DNA from: a virus
Reading direction: 5' to 3' (one strand)
Length of the DNA: 22,835 bases
Virus record (IMG/VR): IMGVR_UViG_3300008740_000421
Location: 1 to 22,835 of that record
Made by a program: the position numbers and the translations under genes. Positions 1,959-22,803 of the stretch are shown piece after piece. Position 1 is the stretch's first letter; each line of letters opens with the position of its first letter. The notes beneath the pieces were generated by a model. That model had not been told where the DNA came from. It saw only the letters and a list, made by a program, of their open reading frames with translations, and ran no database searches.

Positions 1959-2561
1959 ATGCCCTTTAATGTAAACGATATTCGTCAACAATTTACTGCT
2001 GGTGGCGCCAGACCAAATTTATTTGAAATTTCGATGCCATTTCCTACAGCGGCAGGAGCAGATGCAGGAGCGGCCGCGTCAAAGCTAACTTTCATGGCTC
2101 ATGGAGCACAAATTCCTGGAGCTGATTTTACTACGATTGAAGTGCCATACTTTGGTCGTCAAATCAAAATACCAGGAAATAGAACATTTGCTGAGTGGTC
2201 TCCTATCATTTATAATGATGAGGATTTTCTGATACACAATGCAATAAACACTTGGATGAATTCTATTAATAGCCATGTTTCCAATGTACGTTCTCCTGTT
2301 GCGATTTCTACTACGGGTTACTGCACCAACGCTGATGTCGTACATTACTCTAAAGCTGGAGATATTATCAAGCGAGTGACTTTGATCAATGTTTGGCCTT
2401 CTTCTATCACTCCACTTGATCTGGAGTGGGCATCGAATGATCAGCTTGAAGATTTTACGGTGACATTCCAGTATGACTATTGGGTTTCTTCTAGCGTAGA
2501 AAATATTGCTGGAGTGAGTGAGTTTGTTGTGGGGGACAGCGGAACGTCTTCTGGAACATAA
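1959..2561 (+). CDS. 19: Tail tube protein gp19
   Basis: This is the major tail tube subunit, which stacks in rings inside the sheath and forms the DNA channel. It has 200 residues, somewhat longer than T4 gp19 (163). Family-like features are the N-terminal RPNLFEISMPFP strand, PGADFTTIEVPYFGRQIKIPG in the first half, the NTWMNSINSH helix, and a C-terminal tube fold near LEDFTVTFQYDYW. An Ala/Gly-rich stretch around residues 30-40 is probably a loop. The ATG at 1959 has a good GAGGAG site at 1946-1951. It has its own late promoter and lies between sheath and portal, as in T4. The tube identity is secure; a second tube-family gene lies at 8736. Confidence 0.92.
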   Translation: MPFNVNDIRQQFTAGGARPNLFEISMPFPTAAGADAGAAASKLTFMAHGAQIPGADFTTIEVPYFGRQIKIPGNRTFAEWSPIIYNDEDFLIHNAINTWMNSINSHVSNVRSPVAISTTGYCTNADVVHYSKAGDIIKRVTLINVWPSSITPLDLEWASNDQLEDFTVTFQYDYWVSSSVENIAGVSEFVVGDSGTSSGT

Positions 2562-2575
2562 CATAGGAATATAAT

Positions 2576-4087
2576 ATGGCAATTCGTTTATTTGGATTCA
2601 AAATTGGAAGAGATTCTGTTGAGGAATCTCTTCCTTCATTTACACCACCCGAACAATCTGACGGTGCGATGGTCGTTGAGTCTACTGGATGGACCGCGGC
2701 TGGAGCATATGGTCAAAATATTGATTTGAACGGTACTGCAAAAAATGAAGCAGACCTTATCAATCAATATAGAAACATGGCATTATATCCAGAATGTGAA
2801 TATGCCATTGACGACATCACGAATGAATCCATTATTTGTGAAGAAAATAAACCATCTGTTGCTGTTGTGTTGGATAACCTAAAACAGCCCGAATCTATTA
2901 AAAAGAAGATTAGGGAAGAATTTGACAGCATAATGAGAATGCTCGATTTCAAAGACCGAGGATATGATATATTCAGAAGATGGTATATCGACGGCAGACT
3001 CTATTATCATATTCTCATTGATGTGACTAATCCAAGGTCTGGTATTCAAGAGCTTCGACCAATTGATTCTAGAAAAATTAGGCTCATTAAAGAAATCAAA
3101 AGAGGTCCCGGCGCGCCCCCACAAGGAAACGCAGCCGCAGATACAATCGTCAATAAGAGTGTTGAATATTTTTTGTATAATCCTAGTGGCGTTGCTCCAA
3201 TGAACGCTGCACAAGGATTGAAAATATCAACAGATAGTATTTCATATACTACATCTGGTTTGCTTGATGTCAATAAGACAATGGTGATTGGTCATATGCA
3301 TTCTGCGATTAAGCCCCTCAATCAGTTGAAAATGATTGAAGATGCATTGGTGATTTATCGATTGTCTCGTGCTCCAGAGAGAAGAATCTTTTATGTAGAT
3401 GTTGGCAATCTTCCCAAGGCTAAGGCTGAGCAATATCTCAAAGATATTATGACTCGTTTCAAAAATAAATTAGTATACGATTCGTCGTCTGGCACAATCA
3501 CAGATGATCGACATCATAGAACGATGCTGGAAGACTATTGGCTGCCTCGTAGAGAAGGTGGTCGGGGCACAGAGGTTACTACTTTGCCTGGTGGACAAAA
3601 CTTAGGTGAAATCGAAGACATTGAGTATTTTCAAAAGAAACTATACAAGTCATTGAAAATTCCAATATCAAGACTTCAACCAGATGATGGATTCAGTCTT
3701 GGGCGCTCAAACGAAATAACAAGAGATGAAGTTAAATTTGCGAAGTTTGTTACTCGATTGCGACAACGATTTTCCAGTTTATTTTCTGGATTGCTTCAAA
3801 CCCAATTAAGACTCAAAGGAATTATCACAGAAGATGATTGGATTGAGATGAAAGATGACATTGAGTTTGATTTTCTCAAGAACGTGCATTTTGCCGAGCT
3901 ACAAGAATCTGAAATAATGCGAAATAGGCTTGAAATGTTACGAGAAATTGATGAATATAATGGAAAGTATTATTCTACCGAATGGATTAGAAAGAACATA
4001 CTAATGCAAACTGATGATGATATTGATGTAATTGATAGACAAATAAAAACACAAGAACCTCAAGAAGAAGAAGGGCCCCAACAGTAA
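2576..4087 (+). CDS. 20: Portal vertex protein gp20
   Basis: This is the dodecameric portal through which DNA is packaged and on which the head initiates. Its 503 residues compare with 524 in T4. Recognisable blocks are the N-terminal YRNMALYPECEYAIDDITNE, a mid-protein SRAPERRIFYVDVGNLPKAK, then KNKLVYDSSSGTITDDR, the LPGGQNLGEIEDIEYFQKKL block, and IPISRLQPDDGFSLGR. The C-terminus is charged and low complexity (QEPQEEEGPQQ). The start at 2576 follows a TAGGAA site and lies 14 bases after gp19, so it is probably read from the gp19 late promoter. A loop coded by unusually GC-rich DNA at 3107-3120 (GPGAPP) stands out from the AT-rich surroundings. gp20 is a standard marker for marine T4-like phages. 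Confidence 0.95.
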   Translation: MAIRLFGFKIGRDSVEESLPSFTPPEQSDGAMVVESTGWTAAGAYGQNIDLNGTAKNEADLINQYRNMALYPECEYAIDDITNESIICEENKPSVAVVLDNLKQPESIKKKIREEFDSIMRMLDFKDRGYDIFRRWYIDGRLYYHILIDVTNPRSGIQELRPIDSRKIRLIKEIKRGPGAPPQGNAAADTIVNKSVEYFLYNPSGVAPMNAAQGLKISTDSISYTTSGLLDVNKTMVIGHMHSAIKPLNQLKMIEDALVIYRLSRAPERRIFYVDVGNLPKAKAEQYLKDIMTRFKNKLVYDSSSGTITDDRHHRTMLEDYWLPRREGGRGTEVTTLPGGQNLGEIEDIEYFQKKLYKSLKIPISRLQPDDGFSLGRSNEITRDEVKFAKFVTRLRQRFSSLFSGLLQTQLRLKGIITEDDWIEMKDDIEFDFLKNVHFAELQESEIMRNRLEMLREIDEYNGKYYSTEWIRKNILMQTDDDIDVIDRQIKTQEPQEEEGPQQ

Positions 4088-13744: not shown

Positions 13745-15446
13745 GTTTGAGAAAATTCGTTATAAGAATTTTTTGTCATCGGGTAATAATTTTTCAGAGA
13801 TTGATTTAGCCAAAGATGCAAGAACTCTTATTGTTGGTAAGAACGGATCGGGCAAAAGCACATTGCTTGATGCGATTACCTTTGGTCTTTTTGGTAAACC
13901 ATTCAGAAAGATCAACAAACCACTATTGGTCAACACGGTAAATGATGGTGAGTGTTTGGTCGAAGTTGAATTTAGTATAGGCACTGCACAGTATAAAGTT
14001 CGCCGAGGTATCAAGCCTGCGGTCTTTGAGGTGATCCATGACGGTAATACAATCGATCAAACTGCAAGCGCCAAAGACTTTCAGGAATATTTTGAGCATC
14101 AAATACTGCATCTAAATTTCAAATCGTTTACGCAAGCGGTGATTCTAGGTAGTGCCACATTTCTTCCCTTTATGCAATTGCCGGCTGCACATAGAAGAGA
14201 AGTGATTGAAGACCTACTTGATATTCGCATCTTCTCTGGAATGAATGTGATTCTCAAAGAGAGAATAGGGCAAGTAAAGACAAGCATTTCTGAGAATGAA
14301 CGAAACGTCGAGGTTGCAAACGAAAAGATTGAAATTCATCGAAAACATCTTAATAAGATACAAGATGACAGAGAAGCAGTAATAACTGCAAAAGAAGCCG
14401 ATATTTCAAATACCGCCATTACCATTGAAAATCATCAAGAAATAGTAAGCAAAAACAATACGTTAATTGATGAACTATCTGGTAAAATTAAGAATTTCGA
14501 GAAATTTGAAAAAACGAAGAATAAGATAGAAGGTCTGATTGATAAGATATTAGTCAAAGAAAAGAAGCTCAATAAAGAGATTGATTTCTACCAACAGCAC
14601 GACGAATGCCCAACGTGTCAGCAAGATATTCAATCAGAATTTAAATCTTCCATCATTGAAGATAAAACTAAGATGATCGAAGAAGTCACTTCTGGCATCG
14701 AAACGCTGAACACCAAATTTGAAAAAATTACCACTAGCATCAAAGAAATGTCTGCCATTAAAGATAAGATCGTGAAGCTAGAGACAAATAGAAATAACTA
14801 TTCTGGTGAAATAAAAACTCTTGAGATGTATATTAAGAAAATAAATCAAGAGATTGAGAACATGCGACCAATCAATGAAGATTTTTCGCGAGAACAGGAA
14901 GAACTGGAAACTCTCGAAAAATACATTCGAGAATATGAGTCAGAAAAAGAAGAGTTGATCACGGATAATGAATTGTATAGTGTAGCTTCGACTTTGCTCA
15001 AAGATAATGGTATTAAAACACTTATCATTAAACAGTATATTCCAGTTATCAATAAACTCATTAATCATTATCTAGCTTCAATGGATTTCTTTGTCAATTT
15101 CACACTTGATGAGAATTTCAACGAAACGATTAAGAGCCGACATCGTGATAACTTTTCATACTACAATTTTTCAGAGGGAGAAAAGAAACGAATTGATCTT
15201 GCTCTACTGTTCACTTGGCGAACGATTGCGAAACTCAAGAACTCAGTTAATACCAATTTGCTGATCATGGATGAAGTGTTTGATTCAAGTCTTGATAGTG
15301 AAGGCACAGAAGAGTTTTTTAAGATTCTATATTCTGTTCCTGAGGATCTAAATATCTTCATTATCTCACACAAAGATGCGCTGCAAGATAAATTCACAAA
15401 TACAATCTCTGTGCAAAAGGTGAAAGGATTTAGTAAACTAACATGA
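13737..15446 (+). CDS. 46: gp46 recombination ATPase subunit (SbcC/Rad50-like)
   Basis: gp46 is the SMC-like ATPase partner of gp47. The product has 569 residues (T4: 560). The N-terminal ATPase half has Walker A GKNGSGKS (34-41) and the Q-loop region FTQAVILGSATFLPF. Two long coiled coils follow, separated by a zinc hook with C291-P-T-C294. The C-terminal half has the ABC signature FSEGEKKRID (S479 onward), Walker B LLIMDE (about 508-513), and the His-switch region FIISHKD. The ATG at 13737 overlaps the end of gp47 by eight bases, which ensures coupled synthesis of the two partners. The gene overlaps the following hydroxylase gene by four bases (ATGA), so the accessory block is probably transcribed with it. 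Confidence 0.96.
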   Translation: MIKFEKIRYKNFLSSGNNFSEIDLAKDARTLIVGKNGSGKSTLLDAITFGLFGKPFRKINKPLLVNTVNDGECLVEVEFSIGTAQYKVRRGIKPAVFEVIHDGNTIDQTASAKDFQEYFEHQILHLNFKSFTQAVILGSATFLPFMQLPAAHRREVIEDLLDIRIFSGMNVILKERIGQVKTSISENERNVEVANEKIEIHRKHLNKIQDDREAVITAKEADISNTAITIENHQEIVSKNNTLIDELSGKIKNFEKFEKTKNKIEGLIDKILVKEKKLNKEIDFYQQHDECPTCQQDIQSEFKSSIIEDKTKMIEEVTSGIETLNTKFEKITTSIKEMSAIKDKIVKLETNRNNYSGEIKTLEMYIKKINQEIENMRPINEDFSREQEELETLEKYIREYESEKEELITDNELYSVASTLLKDNGIKTLIIKQYIPVINKLINHYLASMDFFVNFTLDENFNETIKSRHRDNFSYYNFSEGEKKRIDLALLFTWRTIAKLKNSVNTNLLIMDEVFDSSLDSEGTEEFFKILYSVPEDLNIFIISHKDALQDKFTNTISVQKVKGFSKLT

Positions 15447-16552
15447 AAGATTGGCAACACGGATATGAATTAGAATATTTGAAAGAGATTGAGAATCGGT
15501 ATTCGCTGTACAACCATTACTCGTGTTCTCCTTTCTCTGAAATGAAAAAGAATACGATTGCAAAGGAACTACACGAGGATAATCTTGTCATAGAAGAATA
15601 TGGCATGTATGTTGAAAAAATTGCAAAAGCCGAATCTGCAATTAAGATGTTTGATGATGTGATCATTGGCAAAAAAGAAAAAGGTGATCGAATCATTACA
15701 CGATTTGAATATGACTCCGATCGATGGTGTCGTCGCACGCTGTCTAAGTTTGAGGGACCGTGTTGGTTGGAGCTTTGGGCAGAAAATTTTGCAGCTAGAC
15801 GAATTGCTCAGGAGTGTGATTTTGTAGAAGTCGGTACGAAGGTAACTTCATTCGGTGAGCTTTTAGTGTGGTTCTTTAAGGATGCAGATAATCCGTTGTT
15901 TGAGCGTCAACATCCGCAAATTGTGCCAGAAGAGTTTTACACACTGAGAAAAGTTAGACTGTCTGACATTCCGATTCAGCCTCTTATTGATTCACTTGAT
16001 CGTATTGATTTGGATTATACAGATCATTACTCAAATTATAATAAAAAGCACTCTTGGTCTGCTCTTTCATTTCGTGGATATACAAACGATCCAGCATTTA
16101 TCACTAAACCAGAAGAGATGAATAAGAAGTGGAAAGAAGAGCATAAAGATGTCGTGTTCGCTATGCAAGATACGCCTTTGCGAGAAAAGTTCCCGGAACT
16201 TGAACCAATTATAAATATGTTACCTGGTGAAAAGCATAGAATAAGATTAATGAAACTCGTTCCTGGTGGCGGCGAGTTACAGAGACACACCGATCAAGTT
16301 GATAAAGATTCTGGAATACGAGATGGAAAAATCATGCGATTTCATTTTCCTTTGATTACGAATCAGAATGTGTCTTTTACGAATTGGGAGACTAGCGGAA
16401 AGCCGACACACGCAAACATGCGAGTTGGTGAGTGTTGGTATATTGATACAAGAAAACCTCATAGTGCTATTAATTCTGGAAACAAAGATAGAATACATTT
16501 AGTTGTTGACGTGAAAGCAAATGATACATTAAGGTCGTTAATAGGAGATTGA
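15443..16552 (+). CDS. Aspartyl/asparaginyl beta-hydroxylase-like dioxygenase with a GNAT-like N-terminal part
   Basis: The C-terminal half is an Fe(II)/2-oxoglutarate dioxygenase of the aspartyl/asparaginyl beta-hydroxylase type. The metal triad is H282-x-D284 (QRHTDQVD) and H340 (KPHSAIN), with R350 in DRIHLVVD as the 2-oxoglutarate ligand. The supporting blocks RIRLMKLVPGGGELQRH, MRFHFPL and RVGECWYID are typical of the family. The N-terminal 150 residues contain WLELWAENFAARRIAQECDFVEVG, which looks like the end of a GNAT acetyltransferase (N-x-x-A...GF.EVG); I see no clear acetyl-CoA P-loop, so this part may be non-catalytic. The substrate is unknown: a protein side chain, a small molecule or a base-linked group are all possible. 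The 369-residue gene overlaps gp46 by four bases. Confidence 0.8.
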   Translation: MKDWQHGYELEYLKEIENRYSLYNHYSCSPFSEMKKNTIAKELHEDNLVIEEYGMYVEKIAKAESAIKMFDDVIIGKKEKGDRIITRFEYDSDRWCRRTLSKFEGPCWLELWAENFAARRIAQECDFVEVGTKVTSFGELLVWFFKDADNPLFERQHPQIVPEEFYTLRKVRLSDIPIQPLIDSLDRIDLDYTDHYSNYNKKHSWSALSFRGYTNDPAFITKPEEMNKKWKEEHKDVVFAMQDTPLREKFPELEPIINMLPGEKHRIRLMKLVPGGGELQRHTDQVDKDSGIRDGKIMRFHFPLITNQNVSFTNWETSGKPTHANMRVGECWYIDTRKPHSAINSGNKDRIHLVVDVKANDTLRSLIGD

Positions 16553-17463: not shown

Positions 17464-18246
17464 ATGATATTCGATGAGGCAAAAACTTATTTGAATAGAA
17501 TTGGTGATTGGGCTGATCCAAATCCAGAACCAATTATTATGGAACACGAAGGCTTTGTTGTTGTCCGTGACGACTTGCTTGGTGCGGGAACAAAAGTTCG
17601 TGGTCTTGACTATTTGATCGGCCATGCTCCAGAATATGAGAATATTAAAGAGTGGGTTTTTGGATCATGCCCTGCGACTGGTTATGCTCAGATTAGTCTG
17701 CCTACTGTGTGTTCACGATACGACAAACGTGCAGTTTTGTTTATGGCGAAGAGAGATCCTAAAAACTTCCATCCATATCAAAAGCAGGGGCTACTTGCAG
17801 GTACAGATTATCGGTGGGTGCCAAATGGTATGTTGAATGTGACTCAAGCCAGAGCGCGTGAGTATGCAGAAGAGTTGCCAGAGACGAGAAAGGTTTTGCC
17901 TCTCGGTCTAGAGCATCCATATGTGACTGCATGTTTCATTAAGGTTGCACGATCATTGCCCGAGCCAAAAGAGTTTTGGACTGTTGGTTCAAGTGGTTCG
18001 TTGAATCGCGCATTACAACTAGCATGGCCAGATGCAGATGCTCATGTGGTTTCTGTCGGGCATAAAATGAAAGAACATGAAATTGGTCGAGCGAAATATT
18101 ATCGTTCAGACTTGAAGTTTGATAAAGCAGTATTACCAAAGGACGAACCACCTTTTCCTTCTGCTCCTACATATGATGCAAAAGCATGGAAGTTTGTGCG
18201 AGAACATGCATCACCGGGTGCGCTGTTCTGGAATGTTGGTGCTTAA
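17464..18246 (+). CDS. Fold-type-II PLP enzyme, ACC deaminase/D-cysteine desulfhydrase-like
   Basis: The N-terminal VVVRDDLLGAGTKVRGLDYLI matches the PLP-lysine region of ACC deaminase and D-cysteine desulfhydrase (RDDL..GGNKVRKLEYL); the candidate Schiff-base lysine is K44. EWVFGSCPATGYAQISLPT (64-81) takes the place of the GGxQSNHxR loop, with the usual Ser-Asn-His changed. TVGSSGSLNRALQLA (173-187) is the glycine/serine loop expected to hold the cofactor phosphate. The length, 260 residues, is shorter than the usual 325-340, so parts of the C-terminal region are missing. Because the substrate loop is altered, I cannot predict deamination or desulfhydration. The gene begins one base after the epimerase stop and is followed 11 bases later by the CysH-like gene, so a shared pathway is plausible. 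Confidence 0.65.
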   Translation: MIFDEAKTYLNRIGDWADPNPEPIIMEHEGFVVVRDDLLGAGTKVRGLDYLIGHAPEYENIKEWVFGSCPATGYAQISLPTVCSRYDKRAVLFMAKRDPKNFHPYQKQGLLAGTDYRWVPNGMLNVTQARAREYAEELPETRKVLPLGLEHPYVTACFIKVARSLPEPKEFWTVGSSGSLNRALQLAWPDADAHVVSVGHKMKEHEIGRAKYYRSDLKFDKAVLPKDEPPFPSAPTYDAKAWKFVREHASPGALFWNVGA

Positions 18247-18257
18247 TAACATTTGTT

Positions 18258-18935
18258 GTGATTGATGAGACTAAAGAATTCCTATATAGTACAATAAAAG
18301 AATATGAACATGTTGCGTTGTCGTGTTCTTTTGGTGCGGCTGAAGGCATGGTGATCATAGACTTGTTGAATAGTCTTGATATTCATATTCCTATCTTTGT
18401 GCTTGATACTGGAAGACTACCTCAGGAGACACACAATTTGATTGACCGTATACGAGATCGCTATGATGTCAACATCGACATGGTGTTTCCAAATTCAGAT
18501 GAACTGTTTGATCTGGTCAAGACAAGGGGACCAAACTGTTTCTTCGATTCGGTTAGTAATCGAAAGCTCTGCTGTCATGTGAGAAAAGTGGCACCATTAA
18601 AAAGGTACATGGAAAATAAAGGATATAAAGCATATATATCAGGAGTGCGAAAAGAACACAGCGAAGAAAGATCAAAAGCAGCACGCATCGAAAAACAAGC
18701 CGATGGTATGATTAAGATTAATCCACTATGCGACTGGACATACACTGACGTATGGGAATATGTAAATGCAAATAGTGTTCCAGTGAACAAATTACACACA
18801 ATGGGATATGAGTCAGTTGGATGTGCTCCATGTTCTCGACCAGGAAAAGGTCGAGACGGTCGTTGGTGGTGGGAAAATTCAAATAAAGAATGTGGCATAC
18901 ATGATTATGGTCACACAGATGGGTCAGGCATATGA
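18258..18935 (+). CDS. cysH: APS/PAPS reductase (CysH) family protein with Fe-S cysteines
   Basis: CysH reduces adenylyl sulfate (APS) or PAPS to sulfite in assimilatory sulfate reduction. This 225-residue protein carries the full set: the PP-loop SFGAAEG (24-30), LDTGRLPQET (49-58), CCHVRKVAPLKR with the C105-C106 pair, GVRKEHSEER, and GCAPCSRP with C189-x-x-C192. The CC and CxxC pairs bind a [4Fe-4S] cluster in APS-type reductases. The C-terminal NKECGIH holds the catalytic Cys (C212). It therefore looks intact. I choose the GTG at 18258, which starts just before the conserved core; the in-frame ATG at 18186 would read back through the previous gene with unrelated residues. It overlaps the methylase gene by four bases. 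CysH genes are known as auxiliary metabolic genes in phages; a role in base or RNA sulfur chemistry is an alternative. Confidence 0.87.
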   Translation: MIDETKEFLYSTIKEYEHVALSCSFGAAEGMVIIDLLNSLDIHIPIFVLDTGRLPQETHNLIDRIRDRYDVNIDMVFPNSDELFDLVKTRGPNCFFDSVSNRKLCCHVRKVAPLKRYMENKGYKAYISGVRKEHSEERSKAARIEKQADGMIKINPLCDWTYTDVWEYVNANSVPVNKLHTMGYESVGCAPCSRPGKGRDGRWWWENSNKECGIHDYGHTDGSGI

Positions 18936-20538: not shown

Positions 20539-21273
20539 TTGGGACGCAAAAATAGAAGGATGAAAATGAAGCAAGTCGAGCACCTAAAGTTAGTCAATGC
20601 TCAAATTATGGAAACAGACTTCAGAAAAGAAAGAAAGGTCGACCTCTTAGCAAGAAATCCCAAACAGCAAAGATTGATAAATCTGTTAGAAAATCAGAAT
20701 AAGCACATTACGTTTGCAATAGGACCAGCTGGTACGGGCAAAACGCTAATCAGCACACTCTACGCAATTCGTAGCCTAAAAAACAAAACAACTCAAAAGA
20801 TTGTAATAACGAGACCGGCAGTGAGTGTTGACGAACAACACGGATTTTTGCCGGGAACATTGGTAGAGAAGATGAGCCCGTGGACAAGACCAATGTTTGA
20901 CATATTCGAGGAATACTATTCCCCGAGCGAAATCGGACAACTAATTAACGAAAACATAATTGAGATTGCTCCGCTTGCATATATGCGAGGGCGAACATTC
21001 AAAAATTCTATAATTATTGCCGACGAAATGCAAAACGCAACAGATAATCAAATGAAAATGCTATTGACAAGAATAGGAGATAATAGTAAAATTATTGTGA
21101 CAGGAGACTTGGACCAATATGATCATGGATATCATAATAATGGTTTGAAGCTATTTGTAGATAGATTACACAAACAAAACAGTAGAATGATTGGAGTAGT
21201 AAAATTTTCAAGAACCGAAATCGAACGACATCCTGTTGTTGATGAGGTGCTGAATTTATATGCTATGATCTGA
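20539..21273 (+). CDS. phoH: PhoH-like P-loop ATPase
   Basis: PhoH family proteins are P-loop ATPases, linked in E. coli to phosphate starvation and very common in marine phages; their phage role is unsettled, with RNA metabolism proposed. The 244-residue product has Walker A GPAGTGKT (62-69), the family block RPAVSVDEQHGFLPGT (91-106), the APLAYMRGRTF segment, Walker B IIIADEMQNA (157-166), and VTGDLDQYD. A basic N-terminus (MGRKNRRMKMKQ) precedes the fold. The likely start is a TTG at 20539 behind an AGGGGGA site at 20526-20532; an ATG at 20560 behind AGAAGG is the alternative. It follows the methylase by 11 bases. Two genes downstream is the porin. Confidence 0.93.
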   Translation: MGRKNRRMKMKQVEHLKLVNAQIMETDFRKERKVDLLARNPKQQRLINLLENQNKHITFAIGPAGTGKTLISTLYAIRSLKNKTTQKIVITRPAVSVDEQHGFLPGTLVEKMSPWTRPMFDIFEEYYSPSEIGQLINENIIEIAPLAYMRGRTFKNSIIIADEMQNATDNQMKMLLTRIGDNSKIIVTGDLDQYDHGYHNNGLKLFVDRLHKQNSRMIGVVKFSRTEIERHPVVDEVLNLYAMI

Positions 21274-21300: not shown

Positions 21301-21606
21301 ATGGTAAAAATGATAAAAAATTTATATACCTTTATTTTAAGTAATGTAGAGATGTATGGTAGCAATCATATGAACCGATTTATCGTTAGATCAGTTCCAG
21401 AATATAAGGAAAGAGAGAAAGCTCACGGTTCGGCCAGCTGGCCAACCGTGTGTTCTCATTGTGACAAAACTATTAATTCCGGTGAAATGTATGGTGCGGT
21501 TGACGACACATATCAGCACGATTACAGAGACATGCATTTTACTTGCCTATTAAAAAATATTGAAAATCATGAAATTAATTTGAATTCTGAATTAAACATA
21601 TACTAA
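21301..21606 (+). CDS. Small zinc-finger-like protein (CxxC...HxxC)
   Basis: I do not recognise the family of this 101-residue protein. It has four likely zinc ligands: C51-S-H-C54 and H79-F-T-C82, with an INSGE segment after the first pair. The pattern C-x2-C, I-x-x-G-E, then a distant H-x2-C resembles PARP-type DNA-nick-binding zinc fingers, but with fewer residues and no confirmed aromatic contacts. The N-terminus is hydrophobic and then basic, and the C-terminus is Asn-rich. The ATG at 21301 has an AGGA site at 21290-21293. A near-perfect palindrome lies in the coding sequence just before the first Cys pair. It sits between phoH and the porin; DNA or RNA binding is possible but unproven. 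Confidence 0.6.
   Translation: MVKMIKNLYTFILSNVEMYGSNHMNRFIVRSVPEYKEREKAHGSASWPTVCSHCDKTINSGEMYGAVDDTYQHDYRDMHFTCLLKNIENHEINLNSELNIY
21424..21450 (+). repeat. Near-perfect 27-base palindrome inside the zinc-finger-like gene
   Basis: The outer arms CACGGTT (21424-21430) and AACCGTG (21444-21450) are exact inverse complements. Between them lies the 12-base palindrome GGCCAGCTGGCC (21432-21443), and one unpaired C sits at 21431. All 26 other bases pair. It is much richer in GC than its surroundings and codes in frame for GSASWPTV. It could form a hairpin in RNA or be a dimer-binding site. Confidence 0.6.
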
Positions 21607-21634
21607 ATAAAAGCTATCATCAACAAACTAAAGA

Positions 21635-21673
21635 GACATTGTGTTCCTCCTTTGTGGAGCATGGTGTCTTTTT
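21635..21673 (+). terminator. Possible intrinsic terminator before the porin gene
   Basis: GACATTGTG (21635-21643) can pair with CATGGTGTC (21660-21668), including three G-U pairs, and CTCC (21647-21650) with GGAG (21656-21659), leaving a three-base bulge. Five Ts follow at 21669-21673. It lies 28 bases after the zinc-finger-like gene. It is weaker than the gp23 terminator, but it separates the porin from the upstream operon. Confidence 0.45.
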
Positions 21674-21696
21674 GGTATAGGAGAAAAAGTATAAAA

Positions 21697-22803
21697 ATGG
21701 ATAAATTTATTCGATTATTTGTAAGTGCGATTGTTATGACTTTTATGGCTACTGCTGCAACTGCGGACGTAACTGTATGGGAGAATGAAGGCCGTTCAGT
21801 TAGCATTGGTGGTGCTTTACGCACTACTGGAGTTGTCAATTTAGAAGATGGTCAAGATTTTGATGTTCTTGTAGATAATGCGAGAATCAATACTTCAGCA
21901 AAGCTGAATGATGCCATTAGTGCTGTGGTAAGTATTGAAAAGCGAGATGGTGAAGATGTAAACCTACTTGATGGTTTTGTTAATGTTAAGGTCATCGACA
22001 AACTTCAGGTTCGAGGTGGTCGTTATAAAGTAGCCACCGATAGGAGTAATCTTGTATCACCGTTTAACCAACTTGTCTGGAATCCTGCTTCAGTCGTCAA
22101 TCGGTACCCAGATACATATGACCGAAGAGCAGAGGGCGTTTCTGCTTGGTCTAATCTTGGTAGCCTCGGTATATCTCCTTCTAACGAGGGAGACCTAGCA
22201 CCCAAATTCAAGTATTATGTTGGTGTGTTTACTGGAGTTAATAATAACAAAAATCCTCTAGTAGCAATTCGAGGCTCGGTTGACTTCGCTAATGTTGAAG
22301 GTGGTTATGATCTTGCTGGCACTTATTTTGGTCAGAAGGATGTTTTGACACTTGGTGCTTCTTTTGCCAATCAAGAAAATGCATTTGGTAACGGAGACAA
22401 TTTCACTGCGTTTGCATTTGATTTGCTCTTTGAGCGAAATATCGAAGCACTAAAAGGTACGTTTACACTTGGCGCATCTTTTAATGACTATGATTTAGAT
22501 GGTGCATACTATACTGTAGGTGGCGATGTCCGTGATGGTCGAGGATATATGATTGAAACTGGATATATTCCATCTTCTATTGTTCTTGCAAAGGGTACTC
22601 CACTTGAAGGAAAGATTCAGCCAAACTTTAGATTTCAGAATTTCAAGTTCGGTGGGGCACAAAAAGGTCGAGAGCAGCAGTTTGACGGTGGTTTGAATTA
22701 TATTATTTCGCCAACAATTGTGGCAAACGTGAATTACAGCCACAACAAACTGAAGAAGGCTAAGTCTGAAGTTATTACATTTGGTATTCGTTACAATTTC
22801 TAA
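21697..22803 (+). CDS. Outer-membrane porin, resembling phosphate-selective OprO/OprP family
   Basis: The 368-residue protein begins with a signal peptide: basic MDKFIR, a hydrophobic stretch, and a predicted cut after A23 (ATA|DVTV). The rest is alternating beta-strand sequence and ends in ITFGIRYNF; the C-terminal Phe is the recognition signal for outer-membrane insertion. The region 103-170 (LQVRGGRYKVATDRSNLVSP, then YDRRAEGVSAW and YYVGVFTG) resembles OprO/OprP porins, where a GRFK-P segment, an R-x-x-GV block and GVFNG occur in the same order. The trimer and phosphate-channel lysines cannot be verified by eye. I start at the ATG at 21697, behind AGGAGA at 21679-21684, because the in-frame ATG at 21652 lies inside the hairpin and spoils the signal peptide. 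It probably alters nutrient entry or surface receptors of the infected cell. Confidence 0.78.
   Translation: MDKFIRLFVSAIVMTFMATAATADVTVWENEGRSVSIGGALRTTGVVNLEDGQDFDVLVDNARINTSAKLNDAISAVVSIEKRDGEDVNLLDGFVNVKVIDKLQVRGGRYKVATDRSNLVSPFNQLVWNPASVVNRYPDTYDRRAEGVSAWSNLGSLGISPSNEGDLAPKFKYYVGVFTGVNNNKNPLVAIRGSVDFANVEGGYDLAGTYFGQKDVLTLGASFANQENAFGNGDNFTAFAFDLLFERNIEALKGTFTLGASFNDYDLDGAYYTVGGDVRDGRGYMIETGYIPSSIVLAKGTPLEGKIQPNFRFQNFKFGGAQKGREQQFDGGLNYIISPTIVANVNYSHNKLKKAKSEVITFGIRYNF

Follow-up and report, generated by a model that had tools for sequence, protein, structure and literature searches.

The 3' end of a T4-like phage contig

The window analysed here is the whole of a viral record of 22,835 bases (IMG/VR record IMGVR_UViG_3300008740_000421), and its setting is clearly T4-like. 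Profile matches identify genes for sheath, portal, prohead proteins, scaffold and gp23, together with tail tube, UvsY, a helicase and the late sigma factor. SbcD- and SbcC-like subunits (gp47 and gp46) are also encoded, and genes for PAPS reductase, a DNA methylase and PhoH come after the T4-like genes. The phage records with the nearest gp23 infect Methylophilales and Pelagibacter, at an identity of just under 60% that is too low for a host to be named. Among the small Methylophilaceae genomes listed, most lack the porin described below; no conclusion is drawn from this.

Other genes of the window are also of note. A 369-aa protein with an aspartyl/asparaginyl beta-hydroxylase domain (15443-16552; PF05118, E 4e-11) adjoins gp46 in many related phages. 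A threonine-dehydratase-like protein (phrog_7093) and then the PAPS reductase occupy 17464-18935, between an epimerase-like gene and the methylase. A 175-aa protein at 11611-12138 matches phrog_471, 'methylamine utilization' (E 5e-11).

The final gene of the record encodes a porin. It stops 32 bases short of the contig end, so that there is no view of what lies 3' of it. The features of this region are as follows.

20539-21273, plus strand: phoH (Pfam PF02562, E 9.4e-69; phrog_170, E 1e-74).
21301-21606, plus strand: 101-aa ORF between phoH and the porin gene, with weak matches (Pfam E 0.059; PHROG E 0.018).
21627-21676, plus strand: 21-bp terminator-like hairpin between the phoH group and the porin gene, from RNA folding.
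21679-21683, plus strand: Shine-Dalgarno-like AGGAG, read from the sequence, 13 bases before the porin ATG (a rather long spacing).
21697-22803, plus strand: porin gene P0001, with an ATG start and 368 open codons; identified by NCBIfam match, urt-linked homologues, tree, model and fold.
21697-21765, plus strand: signal-peptide-like stretch, residues 1-23 (MDKFIRLFVSAIVMTFMATAATA), from the translation; the model has a helix at residues 2-13 and low confidence after it.
22030-22125, plus strand: constriction-loop-like stretch, residues 112-143, between strands 5 and 6; the model is strandless between residues 111 and 144, and R116 and W128 are conserved in the family.

The antisense strand of 21697-22803 has many stops in the frame read. 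The G+C content of P0001 (0.40, and 0.28 at third positions) is like that of the adjoining phage genes. By eye, a Sec signal peptide is apparent at the N-terminus (MDKFIRLFVSAIVMTFMATAATAD), and the translation closes with FGIRYNF, its last residue being F368. An earlier note on this DNA had pointed to both of these ends and to a phage-borne gene near phoH, and all three observations stand: the contig is T4-like and a single ORF separates the porin gene from phoH.

The hairpin upstream of the porin gene is strong. The fold of 21605-21690 reaches -29.2 kcal/mol (z -5.7), and none of 200 shuffles is equally low, which suggests that the porin is perhaps transcribed separately from phoH. It went unmarked in a simple scan for terminators. 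A pattern scan found promoter-like sites at chance level and no excess of the late-promoter pattern TATAAATA. A sigma-54-like pattern occurs 18 times versus 9.8 in shuffles (2 of 100 shuffles were as high); it was dropped as a candidate, the hits nearest the porin being intragenic.

Predicted barrel and cellular relatives

An AlphaFold model of P0001 made with 21 relatives (pLDDT 79, pTM 0.78) is fair and predicts a barrel of 16 strands. A model from two sequences alone has a pLDDT of 27 and is unusable. Among the features of 16-stranded porins, P0001 has the predicted strand count, the long loop at 112-143, the terminal F368 and the signal-peptide-like N-terminus. These bear out the earlier call of an outer-membrane porin. 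Sequence searches of the PDB with P0001, A1 and A4 returned no porins.

P0001 is remote from most sequence collections. It matches no Pfam or PHROG family, Pfam porin families included, and neither a direct search of 50,697 phage records nor peptide-pattern searches of viral and genome collections found relatives. Homologues were instead reached via the neighbours phoH and methylase, a plasmid collection and NCBIfam. The sole NCBIfam match is porin_ExtI (NF040900), at E 3.9e-21 over residues 74-337, with 75.3 bits against a curated cut-off of 150. Searching the plasmid collection by tblastn with P0001 yields two homologues that are 28-30% identical to it, one from Methylosinus trichosporium and one from Niveispirillum. 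In genomes the same query gives matches down to E 7e-30, at 35% identity for the closest cellular relative found.

These cellular relatives lie beside urea and amide uptake genes. The Methylosinus homologue has annotated urtABC directly downstream, and the Niveispirillum homologue is followed at once by a gene with an UrtA model score of 561 bits. A scan seeded with these two porins gave 21 loci, most of them immediately upstream of urtABC; in Methylovorus and Methylobacillus, more distant UrtABC-like genes follow slightly farther on. Because that scan was biased by its query, it was repeated with P0001 itself. At E <= 1e-6, matches occur in 6 of 385 Alphaproteobacteria and 30 of 369 Gammaproteobacteria genomes. 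An UrtA-like gene lies within about 1.5 kb of 22 of the 24 best bacterial matches (E <= 2.1e-17), a count that conveys a pattern and not a probability, since neighbouring matches from related genomes are not independent. Of the remaining two, one (G005, the L035 gene) has an UrtA-like gene about 1.8 kb off and the other (L064) is near a contig end. Matches weaker than E 2.1e-17 mostly have no UrtA-like gene nearby, and within the same flank size none of 30 loci of OprO/P-type control porins has one. Some loci related to P0001 also carry urease-accessory, formamidase or nitrilase-like genes, which were named from sequence and not by model search.

Phylogeny places P0001 in the same company. The trees are quick ones, in which the exact node of the long-branched P0001 is uncertain, and the members of the OprO/P-type clade were picked beforehand, four for their Pfam scores and one because it matches OprP. 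In the second tree P0001 falls on the side of the urt/fmd porins (support 98), outside both the ExtI clade (98) and the OprO/P-type clade (99). Alignment columns agree: P0001 carries the Urt-type residues R42, P122, G176 and G281, which differ in ExtI, and it has R63, D92, R116, R144, R192 and D242 in common with all aligned proteins. These sequence comparisons place P0001 in the urea and short-chain-amide (FmdC/Urt-linked) porin family.

P0001 resembles FmdC of Methylophilus methylotrophus and the urt-linked porins of Proteobacteria and Acidobacteriota in sequence family, barrel and the six common residues, a comparison made for FmdC through the FmdC-type loci of Methylovorus and Methylobacillus inside the tree. 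It differs from them in being phage-borne, in its identity of 28-35% and long branch, and in having no urea or amide genes in view. Its share of lysine and arginine is 10.1%, against a mean of 7.3% in urt porins. In comammox papers a porin of this kind is taken to be a urea porin, and the title of a 1997 paper, cited in PMC7078480, counts in favour of reading the family as urea or amide porins.

Porins in related phages

Homologous porins occur inside other phage contigs. The closest relative found (L154) has gp46, the 369-aa hydroxylase-like gene, the threonine-dehydratase-like gene and the methylase (73% identity) in the order of the window, without the PAPS reductase and phoH that the window has at that place. 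After its methylase come a 1541-aa ORF, a porin and a secreted endonuclease I. The L154 porin is 30% identical to P0001 and 43% identical to the porin of a second relative, G001 (IMGVR_UViG_3300007770_000065).

G001 encodes a PhoH that is 73% identical to that of the window, and its porin lies elsewhere. The order there is the gp45 clamp gene, the porin, a 109-aa ORF, a full-length ammonium transporter and a clamp-loader gene. The transporter (L021:8970-10226, minus strand), two genes after the porin, scores 383 bits with TIGR00836, above the cut-off. In the related phages L002 and L004, clamp and clamp loader are present without this insert. L154 and G001 have no DNA match to each other, and their homologues of window genes are 73% identical in both cases. 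L155 is nearly the same sequence as L154 (99.9% identity) and belongs to the sample series that also gave G001 (3300007770). L154 and G001 may come from a single phage that has two different porins, or from two phages. If they are one genome, a single phage would carry two different FmdC-type porins.

In contigs L118-L121 the porin gene is followed by a 138-aa ORF and then by a PhoH-like gene (named from sequence), which is the window's order reversed. A porin near phoH therefore recurs in a separate phage group, in another order. In L122 the porin (2288-3397, plus strand) follows ribonucleotide-reductase-like genes, with tail-fibre-like genes on the opposite strand, all named from sequence.

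In the second tree P0001 clusters with the porins of G001 and L154 (support 80). The L118 and L122 porins are nested within the urt clade (98-99), apart from the P0001 group, and porin genes of urt/fmd type thus appear to have been taken up by phages at least twice.

Candidate roles of the phage porin

The reading that we favour, with somewhat better than even confidence, is that P0001 is a Sec-exported, 16-stranded porin for urea and short-chain amides with which a T4-like phage raises the entry of small nitrogen compounds. The gene, which the phage carries, would be bacterial in origin. Made during infection, the protein would be exported via Sec and inserted in the host outer membrane, probably as a trimer. 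Small uncharged nitrogen compounds such as urea and short amides could then pass passively into the periplasm at a faster rate. Host transporters and enzymes for urea and amides would in turn supply nitrogen to phage DNA and protein synthesis. The ammonium transporter that G001 encodes close to its porin fits this idea of nitrogen supply. No urea, amide or ammonium genes were seen within the 22,835-base window, which ends 32 bases past the porin. At only 28-35% identity to the cellular porins, and with a long branch in the tree, P0001 may have shifted to another solute. Urea also crosses general porins, so the gain from P0001 could be small.

Two other solutes deserve comparison with urea and amides. 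The earlier note had proposed a phosphate-selective porin that aids phosphate entry where phosphate is limiting. In its favour, VIA-align ranks OprP (Z 27.4) and OprO (Z 27.1), the phosphate and polyphosphate porins of Pseudomonas, as the nearest solved folds, ahead of the next porins at 24.9; they too have 16 strands. However, these fold matches share 13% identity with P0001, and a profile alignment of OprP with P0001 (hhalign, 97% probability) shares 14%. The region called OprO/OprP-like does contain the peptides GRYK, DRRAEGV and GVFTG, which span the invariant or near-invariant family columns R109, R144, G147, G176 and G180, and the likeness is one of fold and remote homology, no closer. 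Among the phosphate-site residues of OprP (K121, S124, S125, K126, R133 and D94; PMC5877670), D94 lines up with D92 of P0001, whereas K121 lines up with N118, and nothing in P0001 clearly corresponds to K126 or R133, in what is a weak loop alignment. Eleven of the 21 alignment relatives match Pfam Porin_O_P (PF07396), and P0001 itself is unmatched at E values up to 10. The closeness of phoH was another clue, but PhoH is an ATPase-like protein that is common in phages, and the porins of two related phage records adjoin other genes; its presence thus says nothing in favour of phosphate transport. Pho boxes are matched no more often than chance predicts. The fold of P0001 is OprP-like, and its phosphate site is unsupported. 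With the OprO/P-type porins in a separate clade and the nearest cellular relatives tied to urea and amide uptake, phosphate selectivity is improbable. The earlier note would have given up its proposal on a best match to another porin without phosphate-binding lysines, and that is largely what was found. An ExtI-like channel, for selenite, tellurite or similar oxyanions, is a little less probable still. ExtI is the only NCBIfam match and is homologous over residues 74-337, and its loss in Geobacter lowers selenite and tellurite reduction (PMC5877670). Membership of P0001 in ExtI was rejected on its place outside that clade, with Urt-type residues at the four differing positions, and on a score of half the cut-off, when urt porins themselves reach 105-115 bits with the same model. 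The window annotation includes no multihaem cytochrome genes of the kind found in the ExtI cluster. The ExtI study makes the same point for its own porin: ExtI was annotated as phosphate-selective yet is unresponsive to phosphate, and FmdC is named as its most similar characterised porin (PMC5877670).

The serious rival to a nitrogen role, and the main one, is superinfection exclusion, which we hold to be clearly less probable, at perhaps half the weight of the nitrogen reading or below. The phage porin would replace or crowd out a host porin that serves other phages as receptor and so limit superinfection, and its solute would be incidental. Lambdoid phages with OmpC-type porins that alter phage sensitivity are the precedent. 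Porins of lambdoid phages include Lc of PA-2 and NmpC of DLP12. They are phage-borne like P0001, but they are general porins of OmpC type, and P0001 matches no Pfam porin family. The endonuclease I directly after the L154 porin (L154:15443-16216, plus strand; PF04231, E 2.8e-29) has a signal-peptide-like start; it may act on periplasmic DNA and could there cut incoming DNA, as exclusion would have it. Against this, both separate phage branches lie within the urea/amide porin family, which receptor swapping does not call for, and another related phage has its ammonium transporter near the porin. An assembly artefact, in which a bacterial porin gene was fused to the end of a phage contig, is brought to mind by the terminal position of the gene. 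It is the least probable explanation of all, given a base composition that resembles that of the neighbours, a homologue that in L154 likewise lies past the methylase, porin homologues inside other phage contigs, and a closest cellular relative that is only 35% identical.

If P0001 is a porin of the urea class, phages would tune the outer-membrane entry of small organic nitrogen compounds as well, an effect that is directly measurable. The viral nitrogen-transport genes that we found described, amt and amtB with glnK, all work at the inner membrane. We put forward, more tentatively than the role of P0001 itself, that a group of T4-like phages has an outer-membrane function in nitrogen acquisition, having taken FmdC-type porins at least twice from bacterial urea-uptake operons, and so adjusts both host membranes. 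The names in this region invite misreading: 'phosphate-selective porin' and PhoH hint at phosphate, while the genomic evidence leads to nitrogen.

Phage porins and viral ammonium transporters are already known. A survey confined to open-licence papers other than bioRxiv preprints turned up no account of FmdC/Urt-type porins in phages. Viruses of oxygen-minimum zones are reported to carry glnK-amtB-ompL cassettes, the porin being of unknown substrate (PMC8115048). As in G001, a virus-borne porin there adjoins an ammonium transporter, a likeness of gene neighbourhood; the cassettes differ in being reported as acquired from Flavobacteriales and in including glnK (PMC8115048). A viral structure library also holds predicted phage porins, one of which is named phosphate-selective.
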